Shown here piece by piece: positions 26,352 to 33,593 of a stretch of 33,593 nt of DNA. Position numbers and translations under genes: made by a program. Position 1 is the first letter of the stretch, and each line of letters starts with the position of its first letter. The notes under the pieces are model-generated. The model worked only from the letters and a program-made list of their open reading frames with translations, made no database searches and was not told the origin of the DNA. This stretch comes from Flavobacteriaceae bacterium. GTDB taxonomy: Bacteria; Bacteroidota; Bacteroidia; Flavobacteriales; Flavobacteriaceae. The DNA lies in the NCBI GenBank assembly GCA_018608725.1, contig JABAZA010000037.1, positions 1 to 33,593 of the forward strand, in the 5' to 3' direction.

Positions 26352-26359
26352 TATATTTG
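26352..26359 (+). promoter_or_regulatory. Candidate -7 element for dapD
   Basis: TATATTTG matches TAnnTTTG, 16 bases before the ATG at 26375. It contains the TTG that begins the longer frame, so that start is unlikely. Confidence 0.45.
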
Positions 26360-26374
26360 ACAAAAAATTACGTC

Positions 26375-27190
26375 ATGGACAACTTAAAGTCACTTATTGA
26401 AACTGCTTGGGAAAATCGAGCACTCTTAGAAGAAAATACAACAAAAGAGGCGGTTAGAACAATCGTTGATTTATTAGATAAAGGAGACCTAAGAGTCGCT
26501 GAACCTACAACGGATGGTTGGCAAGTCAATGAGTGGGTTAAAAAAGCAGTTGTGATGTATTTTCCCATTCAAACAATGGAAACTATTGAGGTTGGACCCT
26601 TTGAGTTTCATGATAAAATTCCATTAAAAACAGGTTATGCCGAAAAAGGCATTCGTGTTGTGCCCCATGCTGTCGCGCGTCACGGTGCGTACATTTCAAA
26701 AGGGACGATCTTAATGCCAAGTTATGTAAATATCGGAGCCTATGTTGACGAAGGAACTATGGTTGACACTTGGGCTACTGTAGGAAGTTGTGCTCAAATA
26801 GGCAAAAACGTTCATCTTTCTGGGGGCGTTGGAATTGGCGGAGTTTTGGAACCGTTACAAGCAGCACCAGTGATTATTGAGGATAACGCCTTTATTGGTT
26901 CGAGATGTATTGTTGTGGAGGGAGTTCGTGTGGAAACTGAAGCTGTATTAGGTGCTGGAGTTGTACTAACGATGAGTACAAAAATTATTGATGTAACTGG
27001 TGATGAAAAAGTTGAATACAAAGGGGTTGTACCTGCACGTTCGGTTGTGATTCCAGGAAGTTACGTGAAAGAGTTTCCCTCTGGAAACTTCAATGTTCCT
27101 TGTGCATTAATTATTGGAAAACGAAAAGAAAGTACCAACAAAAAGACGTCTTTAAACGATGCATTAAGAACGCATAATGTTGCGGTTTAG
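26375..27190 (+). CDS. dapD: 2,3,4,5-tetrahydropyridine-2,6-dicarboxylate N-succinyltransferase
   Basis: The 271-residue trimeric enzyme acts in the succinylase branch of lysine and diaminopimelate synthesis, using succinyl-CoA. The short N-terminal helical domain (DNLKSLIETAWENR) leads into a left-handed beta-helix of hexapeptide repeats: VARHGAYISKGTILMPSYVNIGAYVDEGTMVDTW and the following coils, with VHLSGGVGIGGVLEPLQ as the family hallmark. The start ATG at 26375 gives the usual family length and excludes a TTG start within the -7 element. Its 3' end overlaps the convergent sugar kinase gene by 4 bases. Confidence 0.96.
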   Translation: MDNLKSLIETAWENRALLEENTTKEAVRTIVDLLDKGDLRVAEPTTDGWQVNEWVKKAVVMYFPIQTMETIEVGPFEFHDKIPLKTGYAEKGIRVVPHAVARHGAYISKGTILMPSYVNIGAYVDEGTMVDTWATVGSCAQIGKNVHLSGGVGIGGVLEPLQAAPVIIEDNAFIGSRCIVVEGVRVETEAVLGAGVVLTMSTKIIDVTGDEKVEYKGVVPARSVVIPGSYVKEFPSGNFNVPCALIIGKRKESTNKKTSLNDALRTHNVAV

Positions 27191-27960
27191 TTCGGCGTTT
27201 TAAAGGCCATTTTACGACCACTTCGTTTTAATTTTTTAGCATTAATTTTTTTCTGAAATTGACGGCTGTAACGAAGCATTTCGCTTTGAATTTTAGAAAA
27301 CGGGGTTTTGCTTAAAGCTGCATATTCTTTAGACATAATGTGTATCATTGTCTTTGACATCCAGAGGCGTCTAAAATTATGCATTCGTTTTTTTAAATTC
27401 ATCGTCTCAAAACGCATGCGATTCAAATCAATTAAATAAAAATCATAGTTATCTTCAGATGTTTTTACGATGAGTGTGTTTCCAGGTGAATGATCTAAAA
27501 AATTAACCTTTTGTTCGTGGAGTTTAAAGGTGAAAGCTGTAAACTGTTTAAGGATTTCAACTCTATTAGGGAACTTTAAATCGTGTATCAACACTCTAAA
27601 ATCAAAATCATAAGCGAGATGCTGACTGACATAGTAACTTTGTTTGAGACCAAACCACGAAAAGGTTTCAAAATATGCAATTGGAGTGGGTGTTAAAATA
27701 GATTTTTGAGTTAATATAGTTCCATACTCATAGGATCTTCGCGCTTTGGATTTACGAATGTATTTATAAATGAACGCATTGAAAAAATTTGGAGTTTTGA
27801 ATTGTTTAATATTCAAATGCAATCCCTCAATTTTTAGAGATTTTATGGTGTTTCGATTTCCTTTTAGCACGGTAACTCCCGAGGTTTCAAAATCACTTAT
27901 TGCCTTAGATATCGCTGCTGAATAAGAGATGAATTTGGAATGTACAATAATATTATTCAT
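27187..27960 (-). CDS. LPS core kinase-like protein (WaaP/InaA/KdkA superfamily)
   Basis: The 257-residue protein has the layout of small eukaryote-like kinases that phosphorylate Kdo or heptose in LPS. K52 in LNIKQF is the likely ATP lysine and E78 its partner. D156-HSPGN161 is the catalytic loop, and D178 in LIDLNRM is the metal-binding aspartate. All key residues are present, so activity is plausible. It lacks a signal peptide, which fits action at the inner face of the membrane on a lipid-linked core. The gene is divergent from a GT9 gene and opens the glycan cluster. A 6-bp TATCTT/AAGATA inverted repeat (27991-28005) lies in the gap between them. Confidence 0.82.
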   Translation of the reverse strand: MNNIIVHSKFISYSAAISKAISDFETSGVTVLKGNRNTIKSLKIEGLHLNIKQFKTPNFFNAFIYKYIRKSKARRSYEYGTILTQKSILTPTPIAYFETFSWFGLKQSYYVSQHLAYDFDFRVLIHDLKFPNRVEILKQFTAFTFKLHEQKVNFLDHSPGNTLIVKTSEDNYDFYLIDLNRMRFETMNLKKRMHNFRRLWMSKTMIHIMSKEYAALSKTPFSKIQSEMLRYSRQFQKKINAKKLKRSGRKMAFKTPN

Positions 27961-28019
27961 GTAAATTTTTAGTAACTTTAAAAAAAGTAATATCTTGCTA
28001 AGATAGTCTTTAGTAGTTA

Positions 28020-29078
28020 ATGAAAAAAATACTTGTAATTCAAAATAAGCGAATCGGCGATGTACTCATTGCCTCTTTAATCGCTGCTAATATTAAACAG
28101 TTATTCCCAAATTCTAGGGTTGACTATTTTGTTTATAATTATACAACAGGTGTCATTGAAAACAACCCCAATATTGACAGAATTATCCCAATTAATGAAA
28201 AGGAATTAAAGAAAATTCCAAACCTCGTCAAAAAAGCTGGGCATATAAGAAGAGAAAACTACGATATTATTTTTGATCCCTATTCAAAATTTCAAAGTAA
28301 ATTCATTTCATTTTTTTCAAAAGCAAGTATTCGTGTTGGGTATCAAAAAAAAGGTAAAACTTCTCTATTTAATTCTTACACTCATAACATACATCCTTTA
28401 GAGAAAAAAACAATGCCTTGTGGAAAATCTATTGAGCAAAGAGTACACCTAGTGGATTCCGTATTCCCTTTAGAAACTCCTATTTACACACCTAAACTCT
28501 ATTTAACAGATACTGAAAAAAAGTATTCTAAATTAAATAACTATTCTAAACCGGTGGTTATGGTTGGGGTTTTGGGAAGTACGCCTCAAAAATCTATGCC
28601 ATATTCGTATATCGTTGCACTCATTGATTATGTAACTTCAAATTTTGAAGTGAATATACTGTTCAACTATGCACCCAACCAAAAAGCAGAAGCTACTAAA
28701 ATTTATGAGGCCTGTAAGCACCAAGAGGCGATCATTTTTGATCTTTATGAATCGAATATCAGAGGTTTTATTTCTTTAATGAATCAATGTAAACTTCTGA
28801 TCGCAAACGAAGGCGGAAGTGTTCATATTGCAAAAGCACTTGATAAACCAACATTTACAATATTCTCACCTTATGTCTTAAAATCAGACTGGGCAAGTTT
28901 TGAAGATGGTGAGTTGCATACCTCAATACACTTATTAGATGAAAAACCCGATTTATTTTCCATTTCGAGAGAGGATCGCAAAAAAATCGAAAAAGATCCT
29001 ACAGTTTTATACAATCAACTGACCCCTAAAATTATTCTTAAAAAACTTATACCTTTTCTAAAACATCATATCAAATGA
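28020..29078 (+). CDS. Family 9 glycosyltransferase (heptosyltransferase-like)
   Basis: The 352-residue enzyme has the GT9 two-domain GT-B fold. The N-terminus KKILVIQNKRIGDVLIASLIAANIK is the classic GT9 start (IGDvl). The C-terminal donor site is represented by 'LMNQCKLLIANEGGSVHIAKALDKPTFTIFSPY', equivalent to the D/N-x-GGxxHlA heptosyltransferase motif. It probably adds a heptose or related sugar to the lipid A-Kdo core; donor identity is inference. It overlaps the next gene by 4 bases (ATGA). Confidence 0.88.
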   Translation: MKKILVIQNKRIGDVLIASLIAANIKQLFPNSRVDYFVYNYTTGVIENNPNIDRIIPINEKELKKIPNLVKKAGHIRRENYDIIFDPYSKFQSKFISFFSKASIRVGYQKKGKTSLFNSYTHNIHPLEKKTMPCGKSIEQRVHLVDSVFPLETPIYTPKLYLTDTEKKYSKLNNYSKPVVMVGVLGSTPQKSMPYSYIVALIDYVTSNFEVNILFNYAPNQKAEATKIYEACKHQEAIIFDLYESNIRGFISLMNQCKLLIANEGGSVHIAKALDKPTFTIFSPYVLKSDWASFEDGELHTSIHLLDEKPDLFSISREDRKKIEKDPTVLYNQLTPKIILKKLIPFLKHHIK

Positions 29079-29662
29079 GCAAACTAAGTCTAATAGATCA
29101 ATTTCATATATGGAGACGAAAAAATCGTTGGAATCGTCAGTACAAAAAAGGGCGATGGGAGTATCTTAAAAATGATGTTGAAGCACCTCGATATGCTAAA
29201 ATAGTAAAGGCTATAAAACATCATTCCAAAGCAAATCCTAGCATTTTGGATTTAGGCGCAGGCGAAGGAGTTTTAAGATTACGGTTAGACGAAGAAGCTA
29301 TTGGTTATTTTTTAGGGGTTGACTTTTCTAAAGTTTCAATTAAATCCGCCACTAAGTGTAATTTTAATAATGCAGATTTTCAGGTTGCAGATTTGCATTA
29401 CTACACGCCTCCTCAAGAATTTGATGTCATCGTGTTTAATGAAGCTTTTTATTATATTAATGACGCTGTTAGAGCTAAAGTTCTAAAGAGAATTTTAGGA
29501 AAATTAAAACAAGGTGGAATCTTAATCAACTCCATCTATAAAGAAGGTGTTGGATGTTGGGAATACTTTGATAATCCAGAATTAGAACAACTAGATTTTA
29601 CAACGGTTAAAACAAAAAAAGAAGGTACTTATTGGAAAGTAGGCGTTTATCGTAAACTTTAA
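29075..29662 (+). CDS. Class I SAM-dependent methyltransferase in glycan cluster
   Basis: The 195-residue protein has motif I SILDLGAGEG at residues 56-65, an acidic residue ending strand 2 (GVDFSKVSI), and the post-motif 'FDVIVFNEAFYYI' followed by 'KLKQGGILINSIY'. This is a Methyltransf_11/12 fold. The N-terminal 55 residues are strongly basic (FHIWRRKNRWNRQYKKGRWEYL), which could hold it at the membrane. The substrate is unknown; its coupling to a GT9 by a 4-base ATGA overlap suggests methylation of a core sugar or of a linked group. It is short for its class but appears complete. The gene converges on a GT2 gene with a 1-base gap. Confidence 0.82.
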   Translation: MSKLSLIDQFHIWRRKNRWNRQYKKGRWEYLKNDVEAPRYAKIVKAIKHHSKANPSILDLGAGEGVLRLRLDEEAIGYFLGVDFSKVSIKSATKCNFNNADFQVADLHYYTPPQEFDVIVFNEAFYYINDAVRAKVLKRILGKLKQGGILINSIYKEGVGCWEYFDNPELEQLDFTTVKTKKEGTYWKVGVYRKL

Positions 29663-29663
29663 A

Positions 29664-30491
29664 TTATTCTTCAGATTTAATAATCCCAAAATTAGTCCAT
29701 GTCCTTTTTTCGGCTTTCACAATTCGACGGATCTCTAAGTTTCGTTCTAAAGATTCTTTAGTTTTATATCCTCTAGGATGATCGAGATGCAAACAGATTG
29801 CTTTATGTCTGATTTGTTTTGGACGGATTTTAAAATTCACTAAGCGCTCCCCTATTTCACGATCTGGACCACCATATTTCATACGTTCATCATAGCCGTT
29901 AATCGCTATTAAATCGGATTTCCAAGCCGAGGAGTTACAGTTATTAAATGTAGCTGCTGTTGGAGTCAAAAAATCTAAAATTTTTGATAAAGTAGGGCCA
30001 GAAGAAATTTTCAAACCTTGCTTAAACCCTAAATCACCTTGTTTATTTAACCACTTTGTATCAAAACAATTGGCTGTAGCAATGTCATTTTGAGTGATTT
30101 TTTTACTCAAATCTATATTAAGTTTACAATATCCGCCAGAAAGGAAATATCCCTTTTGAGCATATTTTGCGTGTTCAGATACAAAGTCACATCTTGGAAT
30201 ACAATCTCCATCTGTAAATAAAATATAATCATGAGCAGCTTTAGTGATAGCAATATTTAAAATTCGTTGTCTTCTATACCCTTCATCTTCGTGCCATAAA
30301 TGACGCAAGGGTACTGGATAATCTGCTCTGAAGCTATCAATTAATTCCCTTGTAGTATCTTTTGAGCCATCATCAACAACAATGACTTCAAAAAAATCAT
30401 AGATTTGATGTTTATAGCCTTCTAGCACTTTACGAAGCCAATCCTCAGAGTTGTAAGTACTAACAATAACTGTTATGGGTAAATTTTTCAT
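29664..30491 (-). CDS. Family 2 glycosyltransferase with galactosyltransferase-type C-terminal domain
   Basis: The 275-residue enzyme has an N-terminal GT2 domain, ITVIVSTYNSEDWL, with V39-DDGSKD and the DXD site D94-G95-D96. The C-terminal segment, NCNSSAWKSDLIAINGYDERMKYGGPDREIGERL near residues 185-220, is the Glyco_transf_7C pattern found in chondroitin-synthase-like and beta-1,4-galactosyltransferase enzymes. It is cytosolic, with no anchor visible. It probably extends the outer part of the lipooligosaccharide. The gene has a candidate promoter with TAAATTTG at 30509-30516 (minus strand) and a TTG 22 bases further upstream. Confidence 0.88.
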   Translation of the reverse strand: MKNLPITVIVSTYNSEDWLRKVLEGYKHQIYDFFEVIVVDDGSKDTTRELIDSFRADYPVPLRHLWHEDEGYRRQRILNIAITKAAHDYILFTDGDCIPRCDFVSEHAKYAQKGYFLSGGYCKLNIDLSKKITQNDIATANCFDTKWLNKQGDLGFKQGLKISSGPTLSKILDFLTPTAATFNNCNSSAWKSDLIAINGYDERMKYGGPDREIGERLVNFKIRPKQIRHKAICLHLDHPRGYKTKESLERNLEIRRIVKAEKRTWTNFGIIKSEE

Positions 30492-30508
30492 CTGCTAAAA
30501 ATATGATA

Positions 30509-30516
30509 CAAATTTA
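30509..30516 (-). promoter_or_regulatory. Candidate -7 element for the minus-strand GT2 gene
   Basis: On the minus strand TAAATTTG matches TAnnTTTG, 17 bases before the ATG at 30491. A TTG lies 22 bases further upstream, slightly wider than the usual 19-21. Confidence 0.4.
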
Positions 30517-30580
30517 AACATATAAATTCATTTAAAATCAAAAAATGGACACAAACAAAACAAAATGAAAACAATTTTAG

Positions 30581-30588
30581 TAAATTTG
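30581..30588 (+). promoter_or_regulatory. Candidate -7 element for the plus-strand WaaE-like GT2 gene
   Basis: TAAATTTG matches TAnnTTTG, 14 bases before the ATG at 30603, giving a short leader. No -33 TTG is visible. Confidence 0.4.
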
Positions 30589-30602
30589 ATTTTTAAAATT
30601 CA

Positions 30603-31340
30603 ATGAAAAAATTAACTGTTATCATACCGACATTTAACGAAGAGTGCTACTTAGAGAAAGCTTTGTATTCGGTTAAGTTTGCAGATGAAATCATTGTTGT
30701 AGATTCTTTTAGTACGGACAAAACTCAGCACATAGCTAAAGCCTATAACTGTAAGTTTATTCAACGAAAATTTGATAATTTTTCGAATCAAAAAAATTAT
30801 GCTTTAGAATATGCTACTTCTGAATGGGTCTTATTTTTAGATGCTGATGAGCGTATCACGTTCCCACTTCAAAAAGAGATACTTGAGGCTATTGAAAATT
30901 CAAATTACCAGGGTTATAAGCTGAATTTTCCACATTTTTTTATGAATCGCTTTTTATTCAACCAAAGCAGCTCTGTGACACGATTGGTTGTTCGAGAACA
31001 ATGTTATTTTGAAGGGAGTGTTCATGAGAAGTTAATTGTAAAAGGGGGAATAAGTAGTTTAAAAAATCCTGTATTACATTACACCTATAAGGGGCTAGAA
31101 CATTATATTAAAAAGAAAGATACCTATGCTTGGTTTCAAGCTGAACAACTCTTACAAAAAGGTAAAAGTGTGACATTTTTTCAATTAATATTCAAACCTT
31201 TTTATCGTTTTTTTCACAGTTTCTTTATTAGGGGTGGTTTTAGAGACGGAATACCCGCATTGGCCATTGCTGGAGTAAATGCCTACGGAGTTTTTTCGAG
31301 ATACGCCAAAATGATGCTTCTTAAAAAAGGATTAAAATAG
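30603..31340 (+). CDS. Family 2 glycosyltransferase, WaaE/LgtF-like
   Basis: The 245-residue enzyme has all WaaE/KdtX-type motifs: LTVIIPTFNEE at 4-14, IIVVD34SFSTDKT, and the DXD-E site D80-A81-D82-E83 in LFLDADER. 'GSVHEKLIV' near residue 140 and a C-terminal amphipathic segment 'FKPFYRFFHSFFIRGGFRDG' follow. Members add glucose or another hexose to the inner-core heptose of LPS. It is probably membrane-associated through the C-terminal helix. Two similar genes follow downstream at 32134 and 32847. The 3' end overlaps the convergent deacetylase gene by 9 bases. Confidence 0.9.
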   Translation: MKKLTVIIPTFNEECYLEKALYSVKFADEIIVVDSFSTDKTQHIAKAYNCKFIQRKFDNFSNQKNYALEYATSEWVLFLDADERITFPLQKEILEAIENSNYQGYKLNFPHFFMNRFLFNQSSSVTRLVVREQCYFEGSVHEKLIVKGGISSLKNPVLHYTYKGLEHYIKKKDTYAWFQAEQLLQKGKSVTFFQLIFKPFYRFFHSFFIRGGFRDGIPALAIAGVNAYGVFSRYAKMMLLKKGLK

Positions 31341-32054
31341 GGATAGTTTTCCAAATTTTAATTTCATTTTGAATTTAAACAGACTATCTTCCCCTTTAAT
31401 ATCCAATCGATTTAACTCATAATTATTTTTCAAAGGCAATTTATTCAAACGGTTGCCAATACGTAAACCATAAGCAATGTTTTGTTTTACTAATTCTTCA
31501 AAAAACTGTGTTTTTTGAGGCTCTTTTCGGGGAAAATTCCCGTAGGGATATGCCAAAACATTAGATATATTAAGTTTGTGTTTGGAAACAAAATCATGGC
31601 ATTTTTTAAAATCTTCTTGTATTGATTCAAGTGACAATGAACTGTAGGGGCGGTGCGCAAAGGAGTGCAATCCAAGTTCGATGACAGATGGATCTAAATC
31701 CTTTAGCTGTGAAACTGACATGAGTTTTTCTGTTCCATTGTTCCATAAATCCGTGCCTCCCAAAAAAGAAAACGGGGCATAAAAACATGCTTTTAAATTG
31801 TACTTTTTAAGCAAAGGATAAGCAAATTCATATTGATTTACATAAACATCATCAAAGGTGATAATAATGGGTTTTTCAGGGAAATCATTTGTATGTTTAA
31901 ACTTTTCAATGTCTCTAAAATGTAAACTTGTGTAGCCTTGAGCTACTAAATATTTAAACTGTGCTTCCAATTTATCATAGGATAAAGTCAACCCTTTGCT
32001 ATTGGAGGAGTGGTTGCAAATAGTGTGGTACATTAAAATTGGTAAACGCGCCAT
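31332..32054 (-). CDS. NodB-type polysaccharide deacetylase without signal peptide
   Basis: The 240-residue protein has carbohydrate esterase 4 (NodB) features. 'PILMYHTI' opens the fold. T66-F-D68-D69 is the catalytic and metal-binding aspartate pair. LGLH130-SFAH134 supplies the metal histidines, and 'AYPYGNF' is motif 3. The usual glycine after the aspartate pair is valine (V70). It has no signal peptide, unlike most wall-acting deacetylases, so a cytosolic lipid-linked or core sugar substrate is more likely. It is embedded among glycosyltransferases on the opposite strand. Confidence 0.85.
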   Translation of the reverse strand: MARLPILMYHTICNHSSNSKGLTLSYDKLEAQFKYLVAQGYTSLHFRDIEKFKHTNDFPEKPIIITFDDVYVNQYEFAYPLLKKYNLKACFYAPFSFLGGTDLWNNGTEKLMSVSQLKDLDPSVIELGLHSFAHRPYSSLSLESIQEDFKKCHDFVSKHKLNISNVLAYPYGNFPRKEPQKTQFFEELVKQNIAYGLRIGNRLNKLPLKNNYELNRLDIKGEDSLFKFKMKLKFGKLSLF

Positions 32055-32075
32055 GGTTCAGTAGCTTATATTAGT

Positions 32076-32096
32076 TGTAAAATTATTACTTTTACA
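32076..32096. repeat. Inverted repeat in the divergent gap before the degenerate GT2 gene
   Basis: TGTAAAA (32076-32082) and its complement TTTTACA (32090-32096) flank a 7-base spacer, between the divergent deacetylase and GT2 starts. It resembles a two-fold operator, but the arms are short. Confidence 0.35.
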
Positions 32097-32133
32097 GCCG
32101 ACTACACAATTATTTTTAATTTGTTTTATTTTC

Positions 32134-32844
32134 ATGATTAGTGCCATTGTTATTTCATTTTATGACCACAACTACATTAAGGAGTGTATTTCCAGTCTCG
32201 CCTTTGTAGATGATATCATTATTGTCGGAAAAATTGATTCAGTGGTACTCTCAGAGATTGAACATAAAAATCCCGTTCAATTTATTGAATCTGAAACCCT
32301 TGATTTTGATTTTTTGTTTGAGAAAACATATTCAAAAGCAAGCCATGATTGGATTGTAGTATTAGAAGCGAACCATTGTATTCCAGTTCAGTTGGCAGAA
32401 GAAATTACTGAAATTGTCCTGAACACTGATTCCACAGGAAATTATAAAGTTAAAACACGCTTTATGTTTATGGGGAAATTCTTAAAATTTTCTGGATATA
32501 GAAGCTCCTATACTCCATTAATACTTCATAAAAAATCCATTAAAAATAAAATAACATCAAAAAAATTAAAACACTCTATTGAGGAACTTTATTTAGATTT
32601 TGATCGTTATAGTGAACGACAAACAATAAAAGCAAAGCAAAAAGCTCAACAATTATATATTAAAAATATACAACCCAATTTATTTCATTTCTTAGGAAAG
32701 CCTTTATGGAAGCTAAAAAAAATATTTTTACTAAAACTCGGGTTTTTAGATGGTAAAGAAGGATTTGTATTTGCTTATTTAAATGCTTTCAAAGAATTTA
32801 AAACGTATTTATTTCTTTGGTTAATGTATAGAAATATAGAATAA
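32134..32844 (+). CDS. WaaE-like glycosyltransferase family 2 paralogue lacking catalytic residues
   Basis: The 236-residue protein aligns by eye with both neighbouring WaaE-like enzymes along its whole length. It opens with 'ISAIVISFYDHNYIKECISSL', has 'DDIIIV' in the strand before the nucleotide site, 'HDWIVVLEANHC' at the DXD position, and the closing 'KIFLLKLGFLDGKEGFVFAYL'. The key residues are gone: the nucleotide-binding VVDS becomes VGKIDS (31-36), and LDADE/LDGDE becomes LEANH (77-81). The reading frame is intact, which suggests a maintained protein, perhaps a partner or a lectin-like subunit, rather than a decaying pseudogene. It lies 2 bases upstream of the next GT2 gene. Confidence 0.72.
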   Translation: MISAIVISFYDHNYIKECISSLAFVDDIIIVGKIDSVVLSEIEHKNPVQFIESETLDFDFLFEKTYSKASHDWIVVLEANHCIPVQLAEEITEIVLNTDSTGNYKVKTRFMFMGKFLKFSGYRSSYTPLILHKKSIKNKITSKKLKHSIEELYLDFDRYSERQTIKAKQKAQQLYIKNIQPNLFHFLGKPLWKLKKIFLLKLGFLDGKEGFVFAYLNAFKEFKTYLFLWLMYRNIE

Positions 32845-32846
32845 AC

Positions 32847-33593
32847 ATGATAAAACTATCAGGTGTCATCATAACGTACAACGAACAGGAGCATTTAAGA
32901 AAATGCTTATCTTCCTTAGTCGATATTGTGGACGAAATTATCGTTGTAGACTCCTACTCTACTGATAAAACAGAGGAAATTTGCAAGGAATTTAACGTAA
33001 CATTTGTTCAACAAAAGTTTCTTGGATATTTTGAACAGAAAAACTTTGCGGTAACACAAGCCAACCACGATTATATTTTGTCTTTAGATGGTGATGAAGC
33101 ACTGTCTGACAGATTAAAAACTTCTATTTTAGAACTCAAAAAGGAATGGAAGTACCCTGGTTATTATTGCAACAGAAGAAACAATTATTGTGGGAAATGG
33201 ATTCGTTTTTCGGATTGGTACCCTGATAAAAAATTAAGACTTTTCAAAAAAGATTCCGGGGAATGGAAGGGCATCAATCCACACGATACGTATAAATTAA
33301 AACTTAAGCTGAAAAGTGGCAAATTAAAAGGCGATATTTTACATTGGATTTACAGAGATTATGACGAACATAAAGAAAAAGTTGAACACTTTTCGACTAT
33401 TGGAGCTAAATCCTATTTTGAGTTAAACATTTCGGCCTCTCTTTTTAAGGTGTATTTTAGGCCTTCTTGGGCATTTTTTAAAGCTTATTTTTTAAGACTT
33501 GGAATTTTAGATGGTGTTTACGGATGGCGTATTTGCAAGCAAACATTCATAACTACCTACCTGAAATACAGTAAATTGAGACAACATTGGAAA
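32847..33593 (+). CDS. Family 2 glycosyltransferase, WaaE-like (runs off the right edge)
   Basis: An open frame starts at ATG 32847, 2 bases after the previous stop, and runs 249 codons to the window edge with no stop. It has LSGVIITYNEQEHL at 4-17, IIVVD35SYSTDKT, and the intact metal site D81-G82-D83-E84 in ILSLDGDEAL. 'WYPDKKLRLFKKDSGEWKG' near residue 130 and the closing 'FKAYFLRLGILDGVYGW' are typical of WaaE/LgtF-like enzymes. It is probably nearly complete; family members are about 250 residues. It likely adds a hexose to the lipooligosaccharide core and is cotranscribed with the degenerate paralogue. Confidence 0.88.
   Translation, partial: MIKLSGVIITYNEQEHLRKCLSSLVDIVDEIIVVDSYSTDKTEEICKEFNVTFVQQKFLGYFEQKNFAVTQANHDYILSLDGDEALSDRLKTSILELKKEWKYPGYYCNRRNNYCGKWIRFSDWYPDKKLRLFKKDSGEWKGINPHDTYKLKLKLKSGKLKGDILHWIYRDYDEHKEKVEHFSTIGAKSYFELNISASLFKVYFRPSWAFFKAYFLRLGILDGVYGWRICKQTFITTYLKYSKLRQHWK

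Follow-up and report, generated by a model that had tools for sequence, protein, structure and literature searches.

The open reading frame at positions 32134-32844 of the window (one entire contig, G000:C21, 33593 bases, of a draft flavobacterial genome) encodes what is, judging by its sequence and those of its orthologs, a real, conserved bacterial glycosyltransferase pseudoenzyme. We refer to this frame as the target, to GT2 genes of the type found at 30603 as DADE, and to GT2 genes of the type found at 32847 as DGDE. Our best explanation, to which we assign a probability of roughly 0.45, is that the target derives from a live GT2 and persists as a non-catalytic partner of DADE, its chemistry having been made redundant by DGDE.

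The target lies in an LPS-type sugar cluster spanning 26357-33593 of the window, with genes in the order DapD, Kdo/WaaP-like kinase, GT9, methyltransferase, GT2, GT2 (DADE), deacetylase, target, and GT2 (DGDE). The features on which the analysis turns are as follows.

30603..31340, + strand: DADE GT2, with DADE and VHE motifs; preferred candidate partner; 46/46 genomes also have the target
31332..32054, - strand: polysaccharide deacetylase (Polysacc_deac_1), divergent; between DADE and target in 42/48 DADE-bearing target loci
32134..32844, + strand: target pseudo-GT2, 236 aa; open frame with five active-site signatures gone
32215..32241, + strand: stretch where the nucleotide-binding Asp is lost; IIIVGKIDS vs IIIVDSxST of live orthologs
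32362..32376, + strand: lost DxD; LEANH vs F-D-[LP]-D-E
32701..32841, + strand: target C-terminal helical region, codons 190-236, ending in ...KLGFLDGKEGFVFAYLNAFKEFKTYLFLWLMYRNIE; omega 0.032; motif also in live orthologs
32847..33593, + strand: DGDE GT2, 2 bases downstream of the target, open at the window end; beside 14/14 dead orthologs

The target is an open GT2-like frame with altered active-site signatures

The target frame runs from ATG to TAA over 236 aa without an internal stop, and the DGDE open reading frame starts 2 bases past its stop codon, just as a sequence-only reading of this DNA had described. That reading had also reported that the nucleotide-binding aspartate and the DXD site are replaced in the target while both flanking paralogs keep them. 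Alignment with orthologs bears this out, with the VDS aspartate changed to Gly (IVGKID) and DxDE changed to E-A-N-H (LEANH), and adds three more losses, namely the QKN motif, VHE (through an 11-residue deletion), and the C-terminal His that precedes the TY motif. The flanking DADE retains VVDS/QKN/DADE/VHE, and the flanking DGDE retains VVDS/QKN/DGDE, with PHD near the position of VHE in DADE. From the general description of GT-A enzymes in the accessible part of PMC7185993, we infer that the base lies in VHE and that the lost His is the "C-His" of these enzymes.

Pfam recognizes PF00535 (GT2) in both neighbors (2e-25 and 7.6e-20, 72-90 bits). For the target, Pfam returned no GT2 family at E<=1 and no match reaching the gathering score, only a sub-threshold TOPRIM match (0.037), and NCBIfam returned no match. 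The sequence-only reading had called the protein WaaE-like and knew of no named family for it; none was found in the searches made, and no family named WaaE was among the Pfam and NCBIfam matches. Its description as a full-length GT2 relative held up, as the target is 27-28% identical to its two neighbors over most of its length (1.9e-15 and 8.0e-15), has seven open orthologs in its genus at 56-83% identity where compared, and is modeled with a GT-A fold, a combination that is more than a chance match to GT2. The target is also 34% identical to a live gene at the same locus in genome G029, with which it has its C-terminal motif in common, and these similarities point to descent shared with a live GT2.

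AlphaFold2 (21 sequences) predicted a GT-A fold for the target protein alone (pLDDT 86.8), ending in long helices at residues 156-176, 183-200, and 203-232, while the DGDE protein model had a pLDDT of 81.5. The closest solved folds to the two models include SunS, ThuS, SpsA, TarP/TarS, and WrtF. Foldseek matched the target model at 3.9e-07, and VIA aligned it with 7msk_B (Z 13.4, rmsd 4.7 over 188) and 9omh_A (Z 12.6, rmsd 2.5 over 145). Although the SunS/ThuS S-glycosyltransferases, WrtF, and SpsA are the closest solved GT-A folds to the target model, they differ from the target in being described as enzymes, and their identity to it is 12-15% in the rows quoted. A PDB sequence search with a profile of the dead copies gave partial matches, to GmaR (2.6e-8) and Tako8.

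Dead and live orthologs occupy the same locus in Flavobacteriaceae

We found 14 dead copies of the target, 8 in the window's genus and the remaining 6 spread over three further genera. In the window's genus, 8/18 genomes (the window's included) hold the target, and every copy is a dead, open frame of 236 aa; no ortholog was found in the remaining 10 genomes, which are mostly drafts, 73-90% complete. The DxD metal site and the nucleotide-binding Asp are absent from all 8 genus members, which have E-A-N or E-A-D (LEAN in seven copies, IEAD in one) and Gly in their place, so the LEANH replacement singled out by the sequence-only reading is conserved as a loss of DxD. That reading had held that orthologs keeping a DXD site would mark the target as a recent loss. 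Such orthologs exist, as the 48 live copies described below, but outside this group; within the genus, the loss is common to 8/8 members, which rules out a recent loss or a sequencing error.

Genus g66 holds the target in 3/11 genomes, all three copies being dead, and genus g176 holds it in 3/68 genomes, with two dead copies and one live (G460). In G106, the sole genome covered for its genus, the copy is dead, with VHE substituted rather than deleted. Each of the 14 dead copies is altered at all five signature sites, with the VDS Asp itself retained in G196, G471, and G106. VHE and the C-terminal His are gone from all 14 (the VHE region is deleted in 13), intact VDS, QKN, or DxDE occurs in 0/14, and 14/14 frames are open.

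Live orthologs total 48, located elsewhere in the family Flavobacteriaceae plus G460 of g176; they comprise 39 first counted, 4 below the cut-off, 4 from a second draw, and G460. The first count, in 397 family genomes at a cut-off of 4.9e-39, gave 39 live and 7 dead targets. We read 20 loci just under this value; the four live targets below the cut-off are those of G145, G233, G206, and G132, and more may sit among loci not read. A quick tree gave an SH-aLRT of 89 for a group of three of these within the live rows and 99 for G132 with G334. Every one of the 35 aligned live orthologs keeps the D of VDS, the Q and N of QKN, DxDE, the HE of VHE, and the C-terminal His, nine further live orthologs show FD[LP]DE and VHE, and three of the four below-cut-off targets show DPDE or DLDE plus VHE. 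In G145, the motif search at fixed positions found VHE alone because the frame begins further upstream. The live orthologs (FD[LP]DE ... VHE ... LDG..GF, 48 Flavobacteriaceae genomes) share with the target the DapD-Sua5/CCA locus and the C-terminal motif, but they differ from it in retaining the active-site signatures and in belonging to genomes without DGDE.

Several related loci were seen along the way. Live GT2 relatives occur singly where other types of cluster occupy the DapD-CCA site (loci L190, L192, L193, L201, and L198), and some of these are target orthologs without a DADE neighbor. A weak target relative (27%) with an in-frame TAA is present in another family of the order (L016, genome G045). 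A locus titled "uncultured Rhodobacteraceae bacterium" (L054, CALSPC010000007.1) has the flavobacterial target gene at 83% identity and probably comes from a mislabeled bin.

DADE and DGDE differ in their association with the target

The 46 target genomes were fixed beforehand, and the DADE profile was then run at E<=1e-100 on the 397 family genomes. It found 46 genomes, exactly those with the target (39 live, 7 dead). This exact pairing was undone by G145, G233, G206, and G132, which have a live target without DADE and fall outside both the 46 DADE genomes and the 70 DGDE genomes. The pairing is therefore one-way, in that DADE implies the target but the target can live without DADE. No dead target without DADE was found (7/7 in the genome draw and 14/14 loci have DADE), and at four loci of the genus with DGDE alone (G004, G013, G014, and G015) DADE and target are both missing. 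The deacetylase is missing in 6/48 target loci that show DADE.

The window's DADE (30603-31340) groups with that of g66, and the DADE genes of seven genus-mates group with those of G391/G218 (98/94, 95/89), whose own target is live. Synonymous distances separating G000 from G012 are 1.8 (DADE), 1.6 (DGDE), 0.28 (deacetylase), and 0.38 (target), a sign that DADE was replaced in the genus by recombination and the target was not. Since DADE was swapped alone, the dead protein copes with a DADE taken from a live-target lineage; this tolerance fits a conserved interface and equally fits no interface.

DGDE lies on the same strand behind 14/14 dead targets and behind 0/35 live loci, so the dead copies have a constant neighbor in an intact GT2, a point that the sequence-only reading had raised. 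The gap between target and DGDE in the dead loci is 2 bases in 11 and 3, 4, and 13 in the rest. In most live loci the next gene is one of ~355 aa, and in G196 and G471 the gene after DGDE is 357 aa long, as if DGDE had been inserted between it and the target. DGDE is present in 70/397 genomes, none of which has a live target (39 plus the four found later), and in all 7 of the 397 genomes with both DGDE and target, the target is dead. Among the first-counted 39 live-target genomes, DGDE occurs in 0 compared to 6.9 expected (P 3.4e-4, uncorrected for kinship). It is likewise missing from the four live-target genomes of the second draw, where the best DGDE-profile match is the target itself. Genus g176 has DGDE in 62/68 genomes, including its two dead-target genomes and not its live-target genome. 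The exclusion between live target and DGDE is partly expected because both cluster types sit near DapD and Sua5/CCA as alternatives; what is informative is the absence of a live target from every hybrid cluster found.

Most DGDE genomes (63/70) have no target above the cut-off. In the 39 DGDE-only genomes whose loci were read, no DADE or target ortholog lies within about 4 kb, and two weaker paralogs (28%, 33%) sit near DGDE. The DGDE of G013 (L090) is nearly identical to that of G001/G006/G009 (L095-L097), with a different upstream cluster that has no DADE, deacetylase, or target; this locus is apparently a cluster exchange. In L095 (G001), the GT9 frame is split in two, and 321- and 258-aa ORFs correspond to a 626-aa gene in its sisters, splits that are possibly assembly errors of the draft.

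The sequence-only reading had proposed that the target is a pseudoenzyme acting as partner of the 32847 product. The first half of this proposal stands, given the altered sites in 14/14 copies, the dN/dS, and the lack of a new acid (see below), while the second probably named the wrong neighbor (63/70 vs 46/46). We prefer DADE over DGDE as the partner because DADE was never found without the target, whereas DGDE is mostly without it. We consider it unlikely that the target serves DGDE, its immediate downstream neighbor, as a subunit or activator. The close downstream position of DGDE at all dead copies and its absence from live-target genomes speak for such a role, as do the exchange of DADE without the target in the genus and the ability of live targets to manage without DADE. 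However, most DGDE genomes have no target above the cut-off, G013 has its near-identical DGDE with no target in the genome draft, and the DGDE genes next to dead targets do not form a single clade.

A partnership with DADE faces evidence of its own. The divergent deacetylase gene separates DADE from the target, while DGDE is just 2 bases away, and the swap of DADE by recombination speaks against a closely co-adapted interface. The DADE-target rule may reflect only one cluster type at one chromosomal site, and the four live targets without DADE lowered our confidence in the best explanation and in its bolder version given below.

The target is under purifying selection, most tightly at its C-terminus

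In a one-ratio codon model of 8 genus members, the target had an omega of 0.180 (lnL -3418.5 vs -3571.3 at omega 1). The sequence-only reading had named a dN/dS near 1 as evidence against a functional pseudoenzyme; this value was rejected, omega 1 being worse by 152.9 lnL units. By part, omega was 0.236 for codons 1-130, 0.100 for codons 131-236, and 0.032 for codons 190-236, with similar tree lengths throughout. The neighboring genes gave 0.050 for DGDE, 0.053 for DADE, and 0.076 for the deacetylase (8 genomes each), 0.080 for GT9 (6 genomes), and 0.066 and 0.077 for the kinase and the methyltransferase (7 genomes each), and pairwise values for three dead-copy pairs, G196/G471 included, were 0.19-0.31. 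Selection on the former catalytic half is therefore relaxed, though still present, and the C-terminal part is constrained as tightly as an enzyme at work. C-terminal and N-terminal identities were 0.83/0.58 in the dead copies (24 pairs) and 0.74/0.61 in live pairs of similar overall identity (565 pairs). Since live orthologs are also best conserved at the C-terminus, the contrast in the dead copies has been shifted rather than created, and the tightness is partly inherited. Constraint on the C-terminal part at the nucleotide level was unsupported, as tree length there is not reduced. By these sequence measures, the target is no recent casualty, its active site having been lost while its frame was maintained by selection.

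Persisting purifying selection, together with the invariance of R123 of SGYR across the 8 genus members and the conserved C-terminal helices, would also suit a new job for the target, unrelated to either neighbor, in which it binds glycans or acceptors, acts as a regulator, or transfers sugars without metal by means of other residues; GT-A enzymes that lack DxD and need no metal are known, according to the accessible part of PMC7185993. We nevertheless regard such a job as distinctly improbable. No group-specific acid or His is invariant across the 14 dead copies, and the acids that are invariant in 14/14 (D157 and D206) are invariant in live enzymes too, so the substitute acid-based site that the sequence-only reading had allowed for did not appear. 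The deletion of the VHE region in 13 of the dead copies also counts against a new job. At D11, 13/14 dead copies have Asp where live enzymes have an invariant Glu.

It is more improbable that the target is a remnant heading for loss that has yet to be removed. Its omega is 2-4 times that of its neighbors, and most DGDE genomes lack it, as such a remnant would predict, but all 14 dead frames are open, omega 1 is rejected by 153 lnL units, the C-terminal omega is 0.032, and dead orthologs from two genera group together. Finally, maintenance of the frame solely to bring ribosomes to the DGDE start (translational coupling) would fit the stop-to-start gap of 2-13 nt in 14/14 loci, but this is very hard to credit, because the residues would then be unconstrained, whereas the low C-terminal omega and unreduced tree length there mean that synonymous sites vary freely.

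The number of losses

The target tree places all 14 dead copies on one side (96/99), albeit with a long-branch warning, and dead orthologs of two genera cluster together in it. In the DGDE tree, a single clade beside dead targets was rejected (AU p 1.8e-32; the 14 rows next to dead targets and 4 target-less rows of the genus were set against 39). A well-supported 28-row group (100/100), made up otherwise of solo DGDE genes, takes in the DGDE genes of G196, G471, and G106 but not those of g1/g66; DGDE thus arrived next to a target on at least two occasions, or else was replaced later. The lesions differ as well, since the VDS D is retained only in G196, G471, and G106 and VHE is deleted in 13 copies and substituted in G106.

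One clade of dead-target loci was borderline when DADE and deacetylase were used (p 0.0502) and was rejected with five flanking genes (p 5.6e-5), although flanking genes recombine. In tests with the target only, placing G196/G471 with the live G460/G108 was rejected (p 0.018), as was placing them with G460 alone (p 0.022). Placing G106 with the live G357/G137/G338/G180/G403 was not rejected (p 0.08), nor was placing all three with the live G137/G338/G357/G180/G403/G460 (p 0.10). When the g1/g66 rows were removed, the three dead rows still fell on one side (97/95), and three similar live groupings were not rejected (p 0.08-0.33). With the target tree uniting the dead copies and recombination blurring the flanks, the active site may have been lost once or several times.

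A candidate non-catalytic partner and its known counterparts

In our preferred explanation, retention as a DADE partner, the ancestor would have been a live GT2 of the Flavobacteriaceae LPS-type cluster between the dapD and Sua5/CCA genes. DGDE, the newcomer, would now perform the transfer that was lost, with the old protein retained as a non-catalytic partner of DADE, whether as a stabilizer, an allosteric subunit, or a membrane/acceptor platform, presumably acting via its C-terminal helical region. A bolder version, about which we are doubtful, is that a second GT2 inserted behind the old one repeatedly (two or three times) and left it dead yet indispensable as a subunit of the neighbor upstream, a bacterial GT2 counterpart of COSMC in marine Flavobacteriaceae.

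COSMC (C1GALT1C1) is described, in the accessible parts of PMC7185993 and PMC5493369, as the chaperone of T-synthase and a GT31 homolog without DxD and xED that is 27% identical to its client. The target resembles it as a GT-A homolog without DxD and in its 27-28% identity to the flanking GT2 proteins. The two differ in that COSMC is a eukaryotic ER chaperone, while the target is a bacterial GT2 with a live ortholog at the same locus in other genera. Judged against COSMC, the target appears to be a transferase homolog without DxD and the inferred base that is under purifying selection, and its putative client, DADE, was never found without it, for which shared cluster membership is an alternative reason. 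By analogy, the target would act like COSMC, in a bacterial LPS-type locus. In the Mnn9-Van1 complex (M-Pol I, GT62), the Van1 polymerase activity in vitro needs the Mnn9 protein but not Mnn9 catalysis; unlike the target, Mnn9 retains its own activity, which is needed in yeast (both points from the accessible part of PMC3787745).

No paper on the target gene was found in the open-licence literature among the matches listed, and in the accessible parts of that literature "pseudo-glycosyltransferase" refers to other enzymes only. The inactive glycosyltransferase partners found there in print are eukaryotic. Here, a live enzyme, a dead enzyme, and an apparent replacement occur at one locus in related bacteria, which makes the step from enzyme to partner directly testable. 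A gene such as the target can escape both Pfam and NCBIfam, and an LPS-type cluster may carry out fewer sugar transfers than a count of its transferase-like genes suggests.
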